Shown here: positions 51,011-59,054 of the stretch, piece by piece
Layout of the letters: each line of letters opens with the position of its first letter
Numbering within the stretch: the stretch's first letter is position 1
From: Amphiplicatus metriothermophilus
GTDB lineage: Bacteria > Pseudomonadota > Alphaproteobacteria > Caulobacterales > Parvularculaceae
Length of the DNA stretch: 64,000 nt
Assembly: GCF_900199215.1 (NCBI RefSeq)
Contig: NZ_FZQA01000001.1
Span: forward strand, 372,001 to 436,000
Direction: 5' to 3'
Translations under genes and position numbers: made by a program
The notes under the pieces: model-generated
Database searches by the model: none
What the model was told of the DNA's origin: nothing
The model's input: the letters and a program-made list of their open reading frames with translations, nothing else

Positions 51011-51040
51011 AGGCGGCCTTGAGCGAGGCTCAGGCCGCCT
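51011..51040 (-). terminator. hairpin at the 3' end of the hydroxylase gene
   Basis: AGGCGGCCTTGAGC / GCTCAGGCCGCCT, 13-14 base arms with one bulge and a 3-base loop. It overlaps the stop codon of the hydroxylase gene on the minus strand. No T-run, so termination is uncertain. Confidence 0.4.
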
Positions 51041-51797
51041 TCGGCCCAGCCTCGCGCCCTGCGTCTTTGCGGCCTTCGGTGAGCGCCTTCACCCAAGGCC
51101 ATTTCTCGGCCGTTTCGTCCGTGTAACCAAGATTGCGCGCAGTCGGGCTTCGCGGAACGTCGGCGGTTTCGGCGTAGAACGTGCCGAACACGCGGTCCCA
51201 CATGAACTCGCTGACGCCGAAATTGCCCTTCTCGTTATGGAAGTGATGGGCGAGGTGGCGCTTCTTGAGATCGCGCCAGAATTTCGACTTCGGTTCGAAG
51301 GCGAGATGCTCGCCGGCGTGCAGGAATTCGGTCACGCAGGTCATGATCAAGGTGCCCGCGATCGAGCCGGCCGCGCCGGCGGGCCCGTGCACGAGCCATC
51401 CGAGCGGCCCCGAAAGAATCAGGATGGTCGGCAGCGTGGTGTGTAGGCCGCCGAAAAGCACTGAAAGATCGTTGGGATAGCGATGATGGTCGTAATGGAC
51501 CCGCTTCCACAGCCCGGCGAGATGGCGGGATTTGTACATCCACGAGCCGTGCAGCACGAAACGGTGCAGCAGATACCACGCGAAGGGGAAAAGCAGCGCC
51601 CCGACGCCGACCGAGGCCGCGAACAGCCAGAACGAGGAAGCCGCGTACGCGCCATAGGCCAGGCACGCCAGGGTCAGGATGAAATAGACCTGAATGGCCG
51701 GATAGGTCACATACGCCCGGACCAGATCCTTGAAGGTCATGCGGTTGAGCAGATACTCTTCCGCTTTCCAGGCCTTATAACCGATGAATAGTCTCAT
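51030..51797 (-). CDS. fatty acid hydroxylase/sterol desaturase family membrane protein
   Basis: 255-aa di-iron membrane oxygenase with a FA2H-like arrangement. Four hydrophobic segments and histidine boxes: HRFVLH (~83-88), HYDHHRYPN (~103-111), HAGEH (~163-167) and HLAHHFHNE (~184-192), the set that binds two irons in acyl/sphingolipid hydroxylases and desaturases. The C-terminal GVSEFMWDRVFGTFY is typical. It is divergent from the ceramide operon, so hydroxylation of ceramide (long-chain base or acyl chain) is a reasonable inference; sterol or carotenoid substrates are alternatives. ATG 51797 follows GGGAAAGCGTTC. Confidence 0.87.
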   Translation of the reverse strand: MRLFIGYKAWKAEEYLLNRMTFKDLVRAYVTYPAIQVYFILTLACLAYGAYAASSFWLFAASVGVGALLFPFAWYLLHRFVLHGSWMYKSRHLAGLWKRVHYDHHRYPNDLSVLFGGLHTTLPTILILSGPLGWLVHGPAGAAGSIAGTLIMTCVTEFLHAGEHLAFEPKSKFWRDLKKRHLAHHFHNEKGNFGVSEFMWDRVFGTFYAETADVPRSPTARNLGYTDETAEKWPWVKALTEGRKDAGREAGPKAA

Positions 51798-52220
51798 GAA
51801 CGCTTTCCCGCGCCGGAAAGCCCGGCGCGCCGCTGACGGCGCGAAAGTAGGAGCGCGCTCCGCGAAAGGCAAGGCGACCGCGTTCGCGAAGCGCTCGGGG
51901 AGGCGAAAGTTGAAACATGCGCTCGCAATTCTTGACTTGCGGTAATCTCCCTGCCCCTTGCCCGTTGACCGGAAGGATTGTATCCGCCCAAGATTGTGCG
52001 GCGCGTCCGGCCGGGCGGCGCGGCGGCGCGGGACGGACGCAAGGAGGGCGCACGCGGCCGTCGCCGGTCATCGCGCCTTGTCGGTCCGTGCGGATATCGC
52101 CATTCTGGCGCAGGAACGGTAACAGGGCCCTGACGAAAGGGCGCAGGCGGGGCCGGCAGGGCTTCTGCTTGGCGAGCGAGACAGAGGGCCGGCCGAGGCC
52201 GGCGCAGTGCGGGGGCGTTG
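51798..52220. other. divergent regulatory region between hydroxylase and ceramide operon
   Basis: 423 bases without a convincing gene. It contains TTGACT (~51938) and TTGACC (51965-51970) as possible -35 elements; no good -10 is visible at 17 bases. The segment ~51900-52000 is AT-richer than its surroundings and probably holds both divergent promoters. The rest is GC-rich leader up to the acyl-ACP synthetase start. Confidence 0.5.
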
Positions 52221-53987
52221 ATGGCCGTCATCCCTACTCCGACGACGAACGCGTCGCTGGCGCTAAAGATGCAGGGCTTCCGGACCGTTACGGAAGCGCT
52301 CGATTATGCGGCGCAGGGGGAGACCGGGTTCAACTTCTATAATCTTCGCGGCGAGGCGTTCGCGAGCCTTCCCTATGCGCGGCTGCGGGCCGAAGCGCTC
52401 GATCTCGCCGCCCGGCTCGCCGGGCGGTTCGAACGCGGAGCGCGCCTCGCCATTGTCGCCGAGACGAGCCCCGATTTCATCGTCGCCTTTTTCGCCTGCC
52501 AGTACGCCGGCATGGCGCCCGCGCCGATGCCCATGCCGGTCAATCTCGGCGGCAAGGAAGGCTACCTCACCCAGATCCGGCAGATGGTGCTCGGCGCGCG
52601 CGCGGCCGCGGCCGTCGGTCCGAAGGCGCTTTCCGGCTTCCTTGAGGAAGCCGTGAGCGGTCTCGACGACGCGGCCGTCATGGATTTCGAGAGCCTGCGC
52701 GCGCTTCCAGTCGCGGCCGAGACGCCGCGCCCCTTCGGCCCGGACGAGATCTGCTACATTCAATATTCGTCGGGCTCGACGAGCGCGCCGAAAGGCGTGA
52801 TCGGCGCGCAGGCGTCCGTGACGGCCAATCTTCACGGCATCGCCGTGCACGGCCTGAAGCTGACCGCCGAGGATCGCGCGGCGAGCTGGTTGCCGCTGTA
52901 TCACGACATGGGCCTCATCGGCTTCATGCTGGCTCCGATGTTCGCCCAGCGGTCGGTCGATTACATCGCGACGTCTGATTTCGTGCGCCGCCCCCTGCTC
53001 TGGCTGCGGCTTATGAGCGCCAACCGGACGACCGCGACCTACAGCCCCTCTTTCGGCTACGAACTGGCGGCGCGCCGCGCCGCGCGGGCCGAAGACGGCG
53101 CGATCGATCTTTCCGCCCTGCGCATCGCCGGAATCGGCGGCGACATGGTGCGTCCGGAGGCGCTGAACCTGTTCACCGAGGCTTTCGCGCCGGCCGGTTT
53201 CGATCCGCGGGCCTTCCTGCCGAGCTACGGCCTCGCGGAGTCGACCCTGGCGATCAGCTTCGCCGATCTCGACGCGCCGGTCGCGGTCGATTACGTCGAC
53301 ATGCGCCATTACCACCGCTCCGGCGCGGCGCAGCCGGCTTCCGCACTCACCTCGCCCGAGCACCGGCGCGGCTTCGTGCTGTGCGGGCGCGTTCTGCCGG
53401 GCCATGCGATCGAGGTGCGCGGGGAGGACGGCGCGCCCCTGCCCGAGCGGCGCGTCGGCCGCATCTACATCAAGGGCCCGAGCGTCACGCCCGGCTATTT
53501 CTCCGATCCGCAAGCCTCGAACGCGATGTTCGACGGCGACTGGCTCGACACGGGCGACATGGGCTACTTCCTCGACGGCCAGATCGTCATCACCGGCCGG
53601 GCCAAGGATCTCATCATCATCAACGGCCGGAACATCTGGCCGCAGGATATCGAGTGGGCGGTCGAAAAGGTCGACGGCGTGCGCCAGGGCGGCGTGGCGG
53701 CCTTTTCGGTCGACGACGGCGAAGGCGAGCGCATTGTCGTCGTCGCCGAGCGCCGCGGCATGGCGCCGGAAGCCCTCGCGGAGCTGCGACGCGAGATCGC
53801 GCGGGTCGTCCAGTCGGCCGTCGGCGCGCCGGCCCAAGTCGTGCTGGCCAAGCCGCATTCCATGGTGATGACCTCCTCGGGAAAGCTCTCCCGCGCCAAG
53901 GTGAAGGCGAAATATCTCGAAGGCGCCTTCGATGAGGCGCCCGCCGAGATGGCCCCGCCGCGCGCGCTCGCCGAAGCGCGGGTGTGA
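52221..53987 (+). CDS. aasR: fatty acyl-AMP ligase / acyl-ACP synthetase of ceramide locus
   Basis: Adenylate-forming enzyme of 588 aa that activates a fatty acid as acyl-AMP and loads it onto an ACP. Motifs: ICYIQYSSGSTSAPKGVIG (ATP loop), SWLPLYHDMGLIGFMLAP and PSYGLAESTLAIS, then DTGDMGYFLDGQIVITGRAKDLIIINGRN (as two motifs) and a final SSGKLSRAKVKAKYL with the catalytic Lys. This layout matches FAAL proteins. In Caulobacter the acyl-ACP synthetase of the ceramide cluster provides acyl-ACP to serine palmitoyltransferase. ATG 52221 (TTG just upstream at 52218). The stop overlaps the next gene by 4 bases (GTGA). Confidence 0.9.
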   Translation: MAVIPTPTTNASLALKMQGFRTVTEALDYAAQGETGFNFYNLRGEAFASLPYARLRAEALDLAARLAGRFERGARLAIVAETSPDFIVAFFACQYAGMAPAPMPMPVNLGGKEGYLTQIRQMVLGARAAAAVGPKALSGFLEEAVSGLDDAAVMDFESLRALPVAAETPRPFGPDEICYIQYSSGSTSAPKGVIGAQASVTANLHGIAVHGLKLTAEDRAASWLPLYHDMGLIGFMLAPMFAQRSVDYIATSDFVRRPLLWLRLMSANRTTATYSPSFGYELAARRAARAEDGAIDLSALRIAGIGGDMVRPEALNLFTEAFAPAGFDPRAFLPSYGLAESTLAISFADLDAPVAVDYVDMRHYHRSGAAQPASALTSPEHRRGFVLCGRVLPGHAIEVRGEDGAPLPERRVGRIYIKGPSVTPGYFSDPQASNAMFDGDWLDTGDMGYFLDGQIVITGRAKDLIIINGRNIWPQDIEWAVEKVDGVRQGGVAAFSVDDGEGERIVVVAERRGMAPEALAELRREIARVVQSAVGAPAQVVLAKPHSMVMTSSGKLSRAKVKAKYLEGAFDEAPAEMAPPRALAEARV

Positions 53988-54919
53988 GCGGAACGATCGC
54001 CGTCACCGGCGGCTCCGGCTTCATCGGAGCGGCCCTGATCCGACGCCTCGTCGCGCGCGGCGAGCGGGTGAAGGCTTTGGCGCGCGACCCCCGGAAACTT
54101 CCCTGCGCAGACGACATCGAGCCGATCGCCGGCGCGCTGGAGGACGATGCGGCGCTTGCGCGTCTGGCCGCCGGCGCGGACCGATTCATCCATTGCGCCG
54201 GCGCGACCCACGCCCGGCGCGACGCGGACTACGACGCCGTGAACGCCGAGGGGGCCCGGCGCGCCGCCGAAGCGGCCGCGCGGGCCGGCGCGCGCTTCGC
54301 GCATGTCTCCTCCCTGTCCGCCCGAACGCCCGCCGTCTCCCCTTACGCCGCCAGCAAGGCGCGAGGCGAAGCCCTCGTGTCGGCCGCCGCCGGGGAGAAT
54401 GAGCGGCTGATCGTCCGGCTGCCTGCGGTTTACGGCCCCGGCGACCGGGCCGCGCTGCCCTATTTCCGGCTCGTCCGCGCAGGCATCGCGCCGGAGCCCT
54501 GGACGACGCCGGAAGCGCGCGCCTCGCTCCTCTTCGTCGAGGACGCCGCCGAGGCCCTCGTCGCCGCGCTCGAGCGCGCCCCGGCGGGCGCCGTCTACGA
54601 AGCCGACGACGATGCGCCTGAAGGGCGCGCCTGGCGGGAGATCGGCCAGACCCTCGGCGAGATTCTGGGCCGCGCGCCGCGGCGCGTGCGCTTGCCGCGC
54701 CCCCTGGTCAGCCTTTATCACGGACTGGCGCGCGGGGCCGCCGCAGCCGCCGGCAGGCCGTCGGCGTTCCGGTCCGGCCAGGTCGGGGAGTTCTTCCATC
54801 CCGACTGGGTCGCGCGCGAGAACCGGCTTTCCGCCGCAACGGACTGGCGACCGGCTGTCTCGCTTAAAGAAGGATTTGCAAAAACCGTCCGCTGGTATCA
54901 AGAAAACGGCTTGCTTTAG
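53984..54919 (+). CDS. cerR: NAD-dependent epimerase/dehydratase family protein, ceramide reductase
   Basis: SDR of the extended family, 311 aa, with NAD(P) motif TGGSGFIGAALIRRL (residues 8-22), catalytic VSSLSAR...YAASKARGEAL (Ser, Tyr and Lys of the YxxxK type) and active-site LPAVYGPGDR. Members in Caulobacter reduce the 3-keto group of oxidised ceramide. GTG start at 53984 overlaps the ligase stop. An ACP gene follows after 43 bases. The reductase assignment comes from the matching operon order (ligase, reductase, ACP, Spt). Confidence 0.85.
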   Translation: MSGTIAVTGGSGFIGAALIRRLVARGERVKALARDPRKLPCADDIEPIAGALEDDAALARLAAGADRFIHCAGATHARRDADYDAVNAEGARRAAEAAARAGARFAHVSSLSARTPAVSPYAASKARGEALVSAAAGENERLIVRLPAVYGPGDRAALPYFRLVRAGIAPEPWTTPEARASLLFVEDAAEALVAALERAPAGAVYEADDDAPEGRAWREIGQTLGEILGRAPRRVRLPRPLVSLYHGLARGAAAAAGRPSAFRSGQVGEFFHPDWVARENRLSAATDWRPAVSLKEGFAKTVRWYQENGLL

Positions 54920-54962
54920 GGGACGGCTCCGACAGGCGGAATTCCACGCAAGGATTGGCGCA

Positions 54963-55226
54963 ATGGCCGACATTCAGGAAGACGACGATCTCGTGTTCCA
55001 CAAGATCTGCGCGCTGCTGGAGCCCTTGAATCACAAGGGCGTGAAGCTGACGCGCGACACCGACCTCGTCGCGGACCTTGAGATCGACAGCGTCTCCGTG
55101 CTCGATATCGTGATGGATATCGAGGACAATTACGACCTGTCGATACCGGTCAACACGATTTCCGAAACGCGCACCATCGGCGAGCTCGTCGATGCGATCC
55201 ACGCGCTCAAGAAGCAGCAGGCATGA
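54963..55226 (+). CDS. acpR: acyl carrier protein of ceramide locus
   Basis: 87-aa phosphopantetheine carrier, shorter and more divergent than fatty acid synthesis ACP. The modification site is Ser43 in EIDSVSVLDIV (DSV instead of DSL). Helix III-type DIEDNYDLSIPVNTISETR follows. It likely holds the acyl chain made by the ligase and delivers it to serine palmitoyltransferase. Its position between cerR and spt matches Caulobacter. The ATG is preceded by CAAGGATTGGCGCA, a fair SD. Confidence 0.92.
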   Translation: MADIQEDDDLVFHKICALLEPLNHKGVKLTRDTDLVADLEIDSVSVLDIVMDIEDNYDLSIPVNTISETRTIGELVDAIHALKKQQA

Positions 55227-55230
55227 GGCG

Positions 55231-56448
55231 ATGAGCCTTTTCGACAAGTTTCAGAAGAACGCGGTCCTTTACAACGCGCTCTCCGAAGCCGGCCGCAATC
55301 CGTTCACGGTGCAGATGGACGAAATCCTCGGCCCGACGCGCGCGATCGTGAAGGGCAAGGAGATCGTGCTCGCCGGCACCAACAATTATCTCGGCCTCAC
55401 CTTCCGCGAGGAGGTGGTCTCGGCCGCGCAGGCCGCCGTCGCCGAACAGGGCGCCGGCACCACGGGCTCGCGCTTCGCCAACGGCACCTATGCGAGCCAC
55501 AAGGCGCTCGAGCGCGCGCTGGCGGCGTTTCTGGGTTTTTCCCGCTGCATCGTCTTCTCCACCGGCTATCAGGCCAATCTCGGCGCCATCTCCGCGCTCG
55601 CCGCGCCCGGCAAGGACGTCATCTTCATCGACGCCGACTGCCACGCCTGCATCTATGACGGCTGCCAGCTCTCCGGCGCGGAGACCGTCCGTTTCCGTCA
55701 CAATTCCCCGGAAGACCTCGACAGGCGCCTGTCCCGGCTCGACGGCGATGAGAAATATGCCGGCATGGGCAAGCTCGTCTGCATCGAGGGCATGTACTCC
55801 ATGTTCGGCGACGTCGCGCCGGCGAAGGAGTTTCTCGACGTCGCGCGCCGTCACGGCGCCTATCTGTTCGTGGACGAAGCGCATTCCTTCGGCGTCTATG
55901 GCGAGAGCGGCCGGGGCGTCGTCGAGGCGCAGGGCGTGATCGACGAGATCGACTTTTACTCGGGCACCTTCTCGAAGAGCCTGGTTTCGATCGGCGGCTT
56001 CGTCGCCTCGAACCATCCCGAGCTCGATTACCTGCGCTTTTCGGCCCGGCCTTACATGTTCACCGCCTCGCCCTCGCCGGCCAATGTGGCGGCCGCGACG
56101 GCGGCGCTCCAATGCATCGCCGCCGAGCCGGATCTCAGAAAGCGCGTCTGGGCGAACGCCCGGCGCGTCCATGAAGCCTTCACGCAGCTCGGGCTGGAGA
56201 CCTGCGCCCCGCCGGGCCCGGTGATCGCGGTGAAGCTGCCGGACAGGGAGACCGCCTTCGCGGCCTGGAGCTTCCTCATCGACAAGGGCGTTTACGTCAA
56301 TCTCGCCATTCCGCCGGGCACGCCCAACGCCGCCTCCATCCTGCGCCTGAGCGTTTCGGCGGCGCATACGAACGACGATCTCGACATCGTGATCGACGCC
56401 TACGGCGCCATGGCCGAGACTTTCGCGCAGGCCCGCGTGACCGCCTGA
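55231..56448 (+). CDS. spt: serine palmitoyltransferase
   Basis: PLP-dependent alpha-oxoamine synthase (405 aa) condensing serine with an acyl thioester to 3-ketosphinganine, the committed step of sphingolipid synthesis. PLP Lys249 in FYSGTFSKSLVSIGG, DEAHS (215-219), TNNYLGLTF (50-58) and GTTGSRFANGTYASH (76-90, substrate and cofactor contacts), with PYMFTASPSP later. It could be taken for 8-amino-7-oxononanoate synthase, but the neighbouring ACP, reductase and ceramide synthase argue for Spt. ATG 55231 follows GCATGAGGCG, 4 bases after the ACP stop. Confidence 0.92.
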   Translation: MSLFDKFQKNAVLYNALSEAGRNPFTVQMDEILGPTRAIVKGKEIVLAGTNNYLGLTFREEVVSAAQAAVAEQGAGTTGSRFANGTYASHKALERALAAFLGFSRCIVFSTGYQANLGAISALAAPGKDVIFIDADCHACIYDGCQLSGAETVRFRHNSPEDLDRRLSRLDGDEKYAGMGKLVCIEGMYSMFGDVAPAKEFLDVARRHGAYLFVDEAHSFGVYGESGRGVVEAQGVIDEIDFYSGTFSKSLVSIGGFVASNHPELDYLRFSARPYMFTASPSPANVAAATAALQCIAAEPDLRKRVWANARRVHEAFTQLGLETCAPPGPVIAVKLPDRETAFAAWSFLIDKGVYVNLAIPPGTPNAASILRLSVSAAHTNDDLDIVIDAYGAMAETFAQARVTA

Positions 56449-56546
56449 GCGCGCGGCTGGCGTCGATCTTGCTGCGCCCGCCCATCACAATAGGGCCACG
56501 ATCTGACGCTAGGGCTCGGCCCCGACCGAAGGAGCAGGCAAGGCCG

Positions 56547-57041
56547 ATGAGGATCATGCGCAAGGCTTGTCGCGCCGCGCCGGCGGCGATTCTGGCGATC
56601 GTCGCCGCAGCGGGGGCGCGCGCCGGGGACGACGCGCTGCCCGAAATCGATCACGTCAGCTGCACCGGCGCGGCCAACGAGCTGCGCGTGATCGTGCAGG
56701 GCGTCGAGCGCAGCGTCGGGCTGATGACGGTCGAGCTTTACCGTAACGATCCCGAAAACTTCCTCAAGAAGGAGGGGCGCGCCCTGCGCGTTCGCGTGGC
56801 CGCGCGCGCGCCGGCGACCCGGCTTTGCCTTCACGCGCCCGAACCGGGCGCGTACGCCCTCGCCGTCTACCATGACGAGAACGCGAACGAGAAGCTCGAC
56901 AAGAAGATGTTCGGCCTGCCGGCCGAGCCCTATGGCATCTCCAATAATCCGCGGATGCGCTTCGGGCCGCCCGACATCGAAGAAGCGCTCATTCATGTTG
57001 CGGCCGAAGGCGCGGCGGCGGAAATAGAGCTCAAGAACTGA
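56547..57041 (+). CDS. DUF2141 domain secreted protein
   Basis: 164-aa exported protein. N-terminal signal peptide (KACRAAPAAILAIVAAAGARA) then a beta-sandwich DUF2141 domain with VELYRNDPENFLKKEGRALR, YALAVYHDENANEKLDKKM and FGLPAEPYGISNNPRMRFGP, typical for this domain. Role unknown; members recur near bacterial sphingolipid and other envelope loci, so a chaperone or transport role for lipid is possible, by inference. ATG 56547 (AAGGCCG) gives the signal peptide start. Between spt and the ceramide synthase gene in the same direction. Confidence 0.87.
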   Translation: MRIMRKACRAAPAAILAIVAAAGARAGDDALPEIDHVSCTGAANELRVIVQGVERSVGLMTVELYRNDPENFLKKEGRALRVRVAARAPATRLCLHAPEPGAYALAVYHDENANEKLDKKMFGLPAEPYGISNNPRMRFGPPDIEEALIHVAAEGAAAEIELKN

Positions 57042-57088
57042 TCCGCCCGCTGTCTGAACGCGGGCGCCGCGGAAAGGACCGTGCGAGG

Positions 57089-58270
57089 GTGAACGAAATC
57101 GCTTCGAATCGAACCGGGAGCGCCGCGGCCATTGCGGGCGTTGAAATCCGTCCGGCCGAGACGGCGGCCGAACGCCGCGCCTTCATCCGCGCCGGAACCG
57201 TTCCCTATCGGGACGACCCGAATTACGTGGTCCCGCTCGAATTCGAGCTCGCCCAGCGGCTCGATCCGAAATCCAATCCCGGCCTGAGGGGCGCCGACCA
57301 CCGCCTGTGGATCGCCTACAAGGGCGGCGCGCCGGCTGGCCGCATCGCCGCCCTCGTCAATCCGCTGCACCTCGAAACGCACAAGGACGGCGCGGCGCAT
57401 TTCGGCTTTCTCGAAGCCGTAGACGATGCGGACGTCTTCGCCGCGCTGTTCGCCGCCGCGGAAGACTGGGCGCGCGAACGCGGCATGAAGAAGCTCGCCG
57501 GCCCGTTCAGTTTCTCCGTCAACGAAGAATGCGGGCTTCTTGTCGATGGTTTCGACTCGCCGCCCTATTTCATGATGCCGCACGGGCGGCCCTATTATAA
57601 GGACCGCGTCGAGGCGCTGAACTACGCCAAGGCGATCGACATGTACGCCCTTAGCTGGATCAACCAGCGCCAGTTCATCCCGGAGAAGCGTCGGAAGTTC
57701 GTCGAGCGCGCGCTCGCCAGCGACCGCGTGTCGATCCGCAATATCGACATGAAGAATTTCGTCCGGGACATCCGCACCATCGTCGACATCTATAACGACG
57801 CCTGGCGCGACAACTGGGGTTTCATTCCGTTTACGGAAGAGCAGGCCCGGCGCATGGCGTCGGAGCTGCGTCCGCTCATCGAAAAGCACAATGTCGTCAT
57901 CTGCTATTATGACGGCGAGCCCGCCGCCTTCGGCCTCGTGCTGCCCAACGTCAACGAGCTCATCCGCGACTTCGACGGGAAGCTGCTGCCTTTCAACTGG
58001 CTCAGGCTGATCTGGCGGCTGAAGGTCAAGCGGGTCACGCAGGGCCGCATGCCGCTGATGGGCGTGCGCCGCAAGCTGCACGGCAAGCCGGTCGGCGCGG
58101 CGTTCGCCTACAAGATCATCGACATGGTCAACGCCGCGAACATGGATCTGGGCATGACCTCCTCGGAGCTTTCGTGGATTCTCGAGACCAACAAGGCGAT
58201 GCTGTCGATGCTGCTCGACATGGGCGGGCGCGTCTACAAGACCTACCGGATCTATGAGAAGGCGCTTTGA
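57089..58270 (+). CDS. bcerS: bacterial ceramide synthase (GNAT-fold N-acyltransferase)
   Basis: 393-aa protein with two GNAT-like halves; in Caulobacter the orthologue acylates the amino group of 3-ketosphinganine. Landmarks: PYRDDPNYVVPLEFELAQR (~39-57), LAGPFSFSVNEECGLLVDGF (~142-161), YNDAWRDNWGFIPFTEEQ (~227-244) and the C-terminal SSELSWILETNKAMLSMLL with RVYKTYRIYEKAL. No membrane helix. GTG 57089 follows TGCGAGG. The stop overlaps the ATG of the glutaminyl cyclase gene by 17 bases. Sequence resemblance was judged by eye; activity is from family knowledge. Confidence 0.87.
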   Translation: MNEIASNRTGSAAAIAGVEIRPAETAAERRAFIRAGTVPYRDDPNYVVPLEFELAQRLDPKSNPGLRGADHRLWIAYKGGAPAGRIAALVNPLHLETHKDGAAHFGFLEAVDDADVFAALFAAAEDWARERGMKKLAGPFSFSVNEECGLLVDGFDSPPYFMMPHGRPYYKDRVEALNYAKAIDMYALSWINQRQFIPEKRRKFVERALASDRVSIRNIDMKNFVRDIRTIVDIYNDAWRDNWGFIPFTEEQARRMASELRPLIEKHNVVICYYDGEPAAFGLVLPNVNELIRDFDGKLLPFNWLRLIWRLKVKRVTQGRMPLMGVRRKLHGKPVGAAFAYKIIDMVNAANMDLGMTSSELSWILETNKAMLSMLLDMGGRVYKTYRIYEKAL

Positions 58271-59054
58271 CATCGCCGTTGCGGCGGGCGCGGCCTTCGC
58301 CGCCGCGGCGCTTGCAATCGCGCCGGCGCGGGCCGAGCCGGCGGTCTATGATTACGAGATCGTCCGCGAATATCCCCACGACGCCGGCGCGTTCACGCAG
58401 GGGCTCTTCTTTCTTGACGGCCATCTCTATGAGAGCGCCGGCCAGTATGGAGAATCGAGCCTGCGCAAGGTCGCGCTCGAGACCGGCGCGATCGTCAAGC
58501 GCCGCGATCTTCCTGCGGAGGTTTTCGCCGAAGGCGCCGCGGCTGCGGGCGGGCGCGTCGTCGTTCTGACATGGCGCGAAGGCAGGGGATTCGTCTTCGA
58601 CCGCGAAAGCTTCGAGCCGCTCGGCGAATTCGCCTATGACGGGGAAGGCTGGGGCCTCGCCCATGACGGCGAGCGTTTCGTCATGAGCGACGGGTCGGCG
58701 GTCCTGCGTTTTCTCGATCCTGACAGTTTCGAGGAGACGGGCCGGCTCGACGTGACGCTGAACGGGCGCCCGCTCGGCGATCTCAACGAGCTCGAATGGG
58801 TGGAGGGCGAGATCTTCGCCAATATCTGGCGCGCCGACGCCATCGCCCGCATCGGCCCCGATACGGGGGAAGTCGTCGGCCTCGTCGATCTGCGCGGGCT
58901 GCGGGCGCGCTTTTCGCCGGCCGAAGGTCCGCGCGCAGAGGTTCTGAACGGCATCGCCTATGACGCGGAAACCGGCAGGCTGTTCGTCACCGGCAAATAC
59001 TGGCCGAAGCTGTTCGAGATCCGCCTCGTCGAACGCGACCGCGCCGGGCGATAG
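58254..59054 (+). CDS. glutaminyl-peptide cyclotransferase (plant/bacterial type)
   Basis: 266-aa protein forming N-terminal pyroglutamate on exported proteins. Signal peptide (MRRRFDIAVAAGAAFAAAAL, cleavage near ARA). Five-bladed propeller with PHDAGAFTQGLFFLDGHLYE (~40-59), YGESSLRKV and GWGLAHDG, then LNELEWVEGEIFANIWRADAI and the terminal NGIAYDAETGRLFVTGKYW. These are characteristic of the QC family found in plants and bacteria. Its ATG lies inside bcerS (17-base overlap), so it belongs to that operon, though a link to sphingolipids is not obvious. Convergent with amn 7 bases later. Confidence 0.87.
   Translation: MRRRFDIAVAAGAAFAAAALAIAPARAEPAVYDYEIVREYPHDAGAFTQGLFFLDGHLYESAGQYGESSLRKVALETGAIVKRRDLPAEVFAEGAAAAGGRVVVLTWREGRGFVFDRESFEPLGEFAYDGEGWGLAHDGERFVMSDGSAVLRFLDPDSFEETGRLDVTLNGRPLGDLNELEWVEGEIFANIWRADAIARIGPDTGEVVGLVDLRGLRARFSPAEGPRAEVLNGIAYDAETGRLFVTGKYWPKLFEIRLVERDRAGR

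Follow-up and report, generated by a model that had tools for sequence, protein, structure and literature searches.

Does the row of six genes between positions 52221 and 58270 of a 64,000-base stretch of the Amphiplicatus metriothermophilus genome encode a complete route to ceramide, and do the less familiar genes in and beside the row belong to that route? The stretch, referred to here as the window, is the whole of the DNA analysed and corresponds to G000:C4:372001-436000, where G000 is the organism's own genome (3.16 Mb); the first 48 kb of the window are listed as open reading frames (ORFs) only, without annotation. An earlier note on this DNA described a complete ceramide gene set running in one direction, and the ORFs, the protein families and the homology to the ceramide cluster of E. 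coli EC1515 bear this out. We consider it highly probable that the row is a ceramide synthesis cluster of the Caulobacter and E. coli B kind, in a compact layout typical of the family (Parvularculaceae), with the pathway steps as proposed below. The pathway itself is known, and many genomes of the family share this variant of the layout. The present analysis adds two gene associations, of a divergent hydroxylase gene and of a DUF2141 gene, which are offered as leads, and a head-group locus that is not linked to the row.

As read directly from the ORFs, aasR, cerR, acpR, spt, the DUF2141 gene and bcerS lie on one strand. They are listed first, followed by the features that flank them.

52221..53987, plus strand: aasR, acyl-acyl carrier protein (ACP) synthetase of the fatty acyl-AMP ligase family (PF00501; NF006624 725 bits, cut-off 600)
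53984..54919, plus strand: cerR, ceramide (or 3-oxosphinganine) reductase of the NAD-dependent epimerase/dehydratase type (PF01370 2.3e-27; GTG start)
54963..55226, plus strand: acpR, specialised acyl carrier protein (PF00550 1.5e-9; DSVS at the phosphopantetheine site, motif found by eye)
55231..56448, plus strand: spt, serine palmitoyltransferase (NF047599 566 bits, cut-off 500)
56547..57041, plus strand: DUF2141 protein of 164 aa (PF09912 4.6e-29)
57089..58270, plus strand: bcerS, bacterial ceramide synthase with a tandem GNAT fold (GTG start; E. coli YghO homology; fold model)
51030..51797, minus strand: FA_hydroxylase-family protein of 255 aa, candidate ceramide/sphingolipid hydroxylase of the Scs7/FA2H type (PF04116 2.2e-21; start computed)
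51798..52220, no strand: intergenic region between the divergent hydroxylase and aasR genes (from ORF positions)
58254..59054, plus strand: glutaminyl-peptide cyclotransferase (PF05096 9.4e-93; 17-base overlap with bcerS)

The GTGA overlap and the short gaps reported previously are present: aasR and cerR overlap by 4 bases at the GTG start of cerR, and the spacings from aasR to bcerS are -4, 43, 4, 98 and 47 bases. With this spacing the six genes would form a single transcript. The intergenic region 51798..52220 likely holds the promoters of both the hydroxylase gene and aasR; a sigma-70 scan of it gave no site, other promoter types being outside the reach of the scan.

Each of the five ceramide proteins has a counterpart in the E. 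coli EC1515 cluster, with alignments that cover 82-98% of its length and E values from 5e-14 to 8e-148. Identity to the EC1515 homologues is 42% for aasR, 33% for cerR, 48% for spt and 34% over 71 of 87 residues for acpR, and the bcerS product is 39% identical to E. coli YghO over 379 alignment columns. Pfam and NCBIfam agree with the product names given in the earlier note, with the exception of bCerS, for which neither collection gave a match at E<=0.001. A sequence search of the PDB with bCerS also returned nothing at E<=1. Its AlphaFold model (32 sequences) has a pLDDT of 89.2, and the top PDB folds for this model are tandem GNAT proteins (TMq 0.53-0.60 in the first ten), in line with the GNAT-fold ceramide synthase that had been proposed; N-myristoyltransferases appear in the fold list from rank 32 on. 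CerR (33%) and bCerS (39%, GNAT fold) are the homologues looked for in a proteobacterial ceramide pathway, and a dedicated ACP gene ending 4 bases before spt is accompanied by an acyl-ACP synthetase gene. The roles of AasR, AcpR and Spt have been shown experimentally for the Caulobacter, E. coli BL21(DE3) and S. wittichii proteins (PMC9386255; this and the other papers cited by PMC number were available as extracts).

The identity of Spt bears directly on this assignment. If the spt-like gene encoded another alpha-oxoamine synthase (BioF; Kbl, a glycine C-acetyltransferase; or ALAS, 5-aminolevulinate synthase), the row would be no ceramide pathway. These enzymes share the fold, and the BioF, glycine C-acetyltransferase and ALAS models match the protein at E<1e-60. 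We regard such an assignment as very improbable. Compared with 566 bits for NF047599, Spt scores 315 with BioF, 292 with glycine C-acetyltransferase and 235 with ALAS, and these three and the rest of the 13 other models listed for it each remain below their own cut-off. The ten best PDB matches are all serine palmitoyltransferases (SPT), the top one at 388 bits, with the best non-SPT entry at 209, a lead of 179 bits; with 2jg2 (E 5.8e-115) the protein has the DEAHS and GTFSKS stretches in common. Elsewhere the genome encodes three other members of the fold, less closely related (33-36% identity), and homologues of AcpR, AasR, CerR and bCerS stand alongside spt. The earlier note had named a BioF- or ALAS-like Spt as the result that would speak against a ceramide pathway; the scores are of the opposite kind, and its interpretation is supported. 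Spt passes the NCBI 'BetaP' equivalog and fails the 'AlphaP' one (439 against 670), and since the protein is alphaproteobacterial, the model names do not follow taxonomy here.

In the proposed pathway, AasR would charge the dedicated carrier AcpR with a fatty acid, which Spt would join to serine, and bCerS would add the second acyl chain, the product being dihydroceramide. The same five ceramide genes are present in Caulobacter crescentus (CC_1168-CC_1152, PMC11324152). Locus L055, which we read as a Caulobacter-like locus with the C. crescentus gene order, runs aasR-cerR-acpR-spt, CpgA, CpgB, CpgC, metallophosphatase, DUF2141, HIT, LptF2/G2 and then bcerS. In the window, by contrast, bcerS starts 640 bases past spt with only the DUF2141 gene between them, and a separate contig carries the homologues for head groups and transport. 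A second difference from Caulobacter is the FA_hydroxylase, which was not found in the similar loci L055-L059 or, at E<=1e-20, in their genomes. The B-type cluster of E. coli EC1515 has all five homologues and the identical core order aasR-cerR-acpR-spt, but its yghO is divergent from aasR, unlike bcerS here, and its 14 annotated features (14.5 kb) include no hydroxylase or DUF2141.

Conservation of the row was examined in 21 related loci, of which L017 is cut by a contig end inside aasR and L023 inside spt. The order aasR-cerR-acpR-spt is found in all 21. The DUF2141 gene is directly past spt in 20 (L023 ends inside spt), and bcerS follows it in 18 of these 20, cut short in L006 and L017; the two without it are L016, which ends there, and L014, where none is found within 6 kb beyond. 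The full order aasR-cerR-acpR-spt-DUF2141-bcerS is therefore seen in 18 of the 21 relatives, the rest being two cut contigs and one locus without bcerS. That last locus, L014, is from G059, a genome of the window's genus, in which DUF2141 is still past spt and bcerS is on another contig. The 21 spt relatives with names come from Parvularculaceae, Marinicaulis, Parvularcula or unclassified Alphaproteobacteria records.

Across 150 genomes of the order, spt is present in 48 at E<=1e-100, and 47 of these also have bCerS at E<=1e-40, compared with one (G008, 2.5e-53) of 20 spt-less genomes chosen for the test; shared ancestry is uncorrected in these and the other co-occurrence figures given here. 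bcerS lies no more than 1.1 kb downstream of spt on the same strand in 19 of the 48, made up of 17 of the 21 spt genomes of the family plus G004 and G028. Most spt genomes in the order's other families have 4.5-8 kb between the two genes. The compact arrangement of bcerS behind spt is common in the family and not special to this genome; a layout unique to this genome was considered and is ruled out by the 17 family genomes that share it.

These 19 genomes agree poorly with a published statement that places cerS in a different operon in every case, and the statement does not extend to the family if the row is one operon, as we infer. The row might instead consist of two transcription units, aasR-cerR-acpR-spt and DUF2141-bcerS, that merely lie close together, which we think quite possible while leaning away from it. 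The gap between spt and DUF2141 is the largest of the row, 98 bases here and 58-406 in the relatives (median 123.5, n=20), so that a second promoter is possible, a point that weighs against a single transcript; the gap between DUF2141 and bcerS is short in the relatives (median 35.5 bases, 25-162, n=16). The separate contigs of bcerS and spt in G059 and the wide spacing in other families also favour two units. On the other side, all genes of the row are on the same strand, a weak scan of the gap between spt and DUF2141 detected neither a terminator-like site nor a promoter-like one of the sigma-70 type, and proximity of bcerS to spt is retained in most spt genomes of the family. A single transcript is the somewhat more probable arrangement. 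In one published argument, separate regulation of cerS serves a salvage pathway (PMC11324152); the compact layout, in which bcerS close behind spt is common beyond the genome comparisons of two papers (seven genomes each), bears on that argument.

The divergent hydroxylase gene did not figure in the earlier account of the locus. Beyond it lies a proton pyrophosphatase gene, and 12 of the 21 related loci have a hydroxylase gene in this place, flanked by the pyrophosphatase gene and aasR, one of the 12 being partial. Among them is L013, from Marinicaulis flavus SY-3-19, which has the complete row together with the hydroxylase. In the PDB the protein matches nothing at E<=0.1 except yeast Scs7, in two entries (4zr1, 2.6e-9; 4zr0, 4.7e-9). 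It combines PF04116 with the conserved histidine motifs of Scs7/FA2H enzymes, the histidines of the HRFxLH, HYDHH, HxxxH and HLAHH motifs being invariant in 13 of 13 aligned rows. With the ceramide 2-hydroxylase of yeast and other eukaryotes (Scs7/FA2H) it shares a 158-residue alignment and HRFxxH, HxxHH and HLxHH motifs, although the similarity to Scs7 is remote and the protein here is bacterial, 255 aa long and has a predicted substrate.

Its distribution was surveyed in draws of 385 alphaproteobacterial genomes, the window's genome being included in both. bCerS was found at E<=1e-40 in 50 of the 385 and the hydroxylase at E<=1e-20 in 37 (weakest match 2.1e-81). All 37 hydroxylase carriers have bCerS, an overlap with a hypergeometric probability of 6e-41, a figure that ignores shared ancestry. 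For 33 of the 38 hydroxylase copies, bcerS follows directly downstream on the same strand at a distance of 20-165 bases, measured between match ends; the remaining five are the window's own, that of G492 and three unlinked copies. Among 34 bcerS loci, one per other genus and some cut by contig ends, the hydroxylase is a strong match in 24 and a weak one in another. Within the 150 genomes of the order, all 18 hydroxylase carriers have spt. Judged from its relatives and its company in the genomes, the divergent FA_hydroxylase probably acts on ceramide, with the N-acyl chain as the likeliest site of hydroxylation. The site may alternatively be C4 of the base, as for Sur2, which presumably belongs to the same Pfam family.

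The hydroxylase is an optional component, and several findings weigh against this role. The window's hydroxylase gene is not beside bcerS, 13 of the 50 bCerS genomes of the class have no hydroxylase at E<=1e-20, and at the same threshold four of the five members of the window's genus that carry spt, as well as G040, gave no match. In G129 the sole match is partial and interrupted by a stop (G129:C65:11293-11676), which suggests a loss in progress. The enzyme could thus act on another lipid (a carotenoid, a sterol-like compound or a free fatty acid) and be a mere neighbour of the ceramide genes. PF04116 is a broad family, the gene is divergent from the operon in the window, and many spt genomes lack it. 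Moreover, the fatty acid 2-hydroxylase of Sphingomonas is a P450 unrelated to FA2H (PMC10002949), and the Caulobacter hydroxylase is reportedly a DesA-type protein, CC_0202 (PMC11324152). We nevertheless think this unlikely, in view of the confinement of the hydroxylase to bCerS genomes in the class survey, the usual position of its gene directly upstream of bcerS, its PDB matches to Scs7 alone, and the functional FA2H-like proteins of myxobacteria, which the title of Ring 2009 ties to sphingolipid formation (as cited in PMC10002949). These myxobacterial enzymes, likened to the present one by description only, mean that an FA2H-type enzyme in a bacterium is in itself no novelty. A Rhodothalassium gene is annotated as a sphingolipid/fatty acid hydroxylase (PMC11762602). 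Our literature search found no publication joining FA_hydroxylase to alphaproteobacterial sphingolipids, and we do not claim that the link is not in print. Ceramide hydroxylation remains our preferred role for the protein.

The gene between spt and bcerS encodes a DUF2141 protein, as had been noted, scoring 101 bits against a PF09912 gathering score of 24.4, and its export signal is an apparent signal peptide judged by eye. Residues C39 and C94 are invariant in 30 of 30 aligned rows (one more row, with a stop, was left out). Its structure model is a beta-sandwich (pLDDT 87.8); a fold search of the PDB gave no match at E<=0.001, the best being 5.5e-3, and we draw nothing about function from the fold other than 'beta-sandwich'. 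DUF2141 genes occur in 8 of the 34 class bcerS loci beside LptF2, LptG2, HIT or hydroxylase genes, and this company underlies our guess at lipid handling. The closest DUF2141 subfamily (E<=4.3e-35) is found in 13 class genomes, every one of which has bCerS; scores then drop to 2.0e-30, and of the 20 genomes ranking next 3 have bCerS. The threshold for the subfamily was chosen with the ranked scores in view, and the profile, which derives from sphingolipid-linked sequences of the order, is biased towards genes of that kind. The DUF2141 protein is probably an exported helper that would act in lipid handling outside the inner membrane.

Other counts weigh against a sphingolipid role. DUF2141 is present in 111 of the 385 class genomes, 84 without bCerS and 27 with it, so DUF2141 proteins at large are not specific to sphingolipids, and two cluster-linked DUF2141 genes (L182, L204) fall far below the subfamily cut. 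Use of any DUF2141 gene as a marker of sphingolipid clusters was tried and is ruled out, as 35 of 40 class loci (one per family, out of 49 families picked) have no counted sphingolipid gene alongside; L135 and L146, among the 35, have only a weak AMP-ligase or short-chain dehydrogenase/reductase (SDR) match, taken as paralogues. The gene might therefore be unrelated to sphingolipids and kept in the row by inheritance only, an explanation that we find rather doubtful. These counts speak for it, as does the co-location of DUF2141 with crtG in Sphingomonadales (PMC5989583, PMC9241875). The crtG-linked genes are of the same superfamily and next to a lipid-modifying gene; their context is that of carotenoids, and they probably belong to another subfamily than the window's. 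CC_1157 and CC_1167 of Caulobacter have also been called 'probably unrelated' (PMC11324152). CC_1157 may be the DUF2141 gene, although the corresponding place in L055 is occupied by a HIT gene as well as a DUF2141 gene; Caulobacter vibrioides was the sole one of 14 control genomes with a DUF2141 match. Against inheritance alone stand the 13 best-scoring class genomes, all with bCerS, and the presence of the gene in sphingolipid clusters of several families, beside bcerS, FA_hydroxylase (FAH), HIT or LptF2/G2 genes. A helper in lipid handling is the role that we favour. The genome has a second DUF2141 gene (G000:C4:623974-624261, L119) beside a methyltransferase-like ORF recognised by eye; with a profile score of 1.1e-14 it falls outside the group linked to sphingolipids.

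Taken further, the two associations might reveal two unrecognised parts of the pathway, a proposal that we put forward only tentatively. One would be an Scs7/FA2H-type hydroxylase, normally encoded upstream of bcerS and missing from the Caulobacter-like model genomes; the other would be a disulfide-bonded DUF2141 ceramide carrier that moves ceramide lipids from the inner membrane to the LptF2/G2 route. Both touch on open points, bacterial ceramide hydroxylation and the passage of ceramide across the periplasm. Loss of the DesA-type hydroxylase CC_0202 makes Caulobacter resistant to polymyxin E (work cited in PMC11324152), CerR has been placed in the periplasm (PMC11087976), and the sphingolipid route to the outer membrane is described as not known (PMC11324152). 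The hydroxylase and the DUF2141 subfamily, both found only in bCerS genomes in the class survey, provide two specific gene targets.

Where, then, are the head-group genes? They had been reported as missing from the window, and for CpgA and CpgB this holds, as each has a single match in the genome, on contig C8 and so outside the window; CpgC and CpgD were not searched genome-wide. The C8 homologues are CpgB kinase (1.4e-33), CpgA (1.1e-38) and LptF2 (1.5e-30), and two further LptF/G-like matches are on C4 and C15, outside the window. Locus L118 (G000:C8:148000-167900) contains homologues of a flippase, CpgD, an NTP transferase, LptG2, LptF2, a HIT protein, a metallophosphatase, CpgC, CpgB and CpgA. 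DAGK_cat and CDP-OH_P_transf domains were found in L118, its CpgD-like protein is a 46% match over 239 residues, and its HIT-like protein has no Pfam match and resembles the HIT protein of L055. The possibility that the genome lacks head-group genes is ruled out by these homologues: CpgA to CpgD of the CPG/CPG2 phosphosphingolipid pathway are all represented, and are not clustered with spt, CpgA and CpgB being on C8 and the ceramide row on C4. The Cpg query names were taken from position and domains in L064 and L055 and from the descriptions in papers, not from Caulobacter records. CpgA we take to be CC_1161 and CpgC to be CC_1159. CpgB is described as a kinase with a diacylglycerol (DAG) kinase domain (PMC10331486) and CpgD as a nucleotidyltransferase (PMC12275187). 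In the proposed pathway the CpgA-D homologues of this second locus would probably phosphorylate ceramide and form phosphoglycerate head groups, and the LptF2/LptG2 and flippase homologues would probably take the ceramide lipid to the outer membrane.

Matches to both CpgA and CpgB are present in 13 of the 21 spt-bearing genomes of the family, and neither is found in three spt-less ones tested. The other eight spt-bearing genomes (G094, G010, G020, G055, G074, G134, G139 and G149) have no CpgA or CpgB match, which counts against a head-group step throughout the family; in these the ceramide may stay unmodified or bear a different head group. The head group is therefore not fixed in the family, and ceramide phosphoglycerate, a fair prediction from the gene content of this genome, can be predicted for it and not for the family as a whole.

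Scans of the window for tRNA genes and with Rfam gave no matches. The glutaminyl-peptide cyclotransferase gene is found 3' of bcerS in 11 of the 16 related loci with room for it, and is probably a neighbour outside the pathway.

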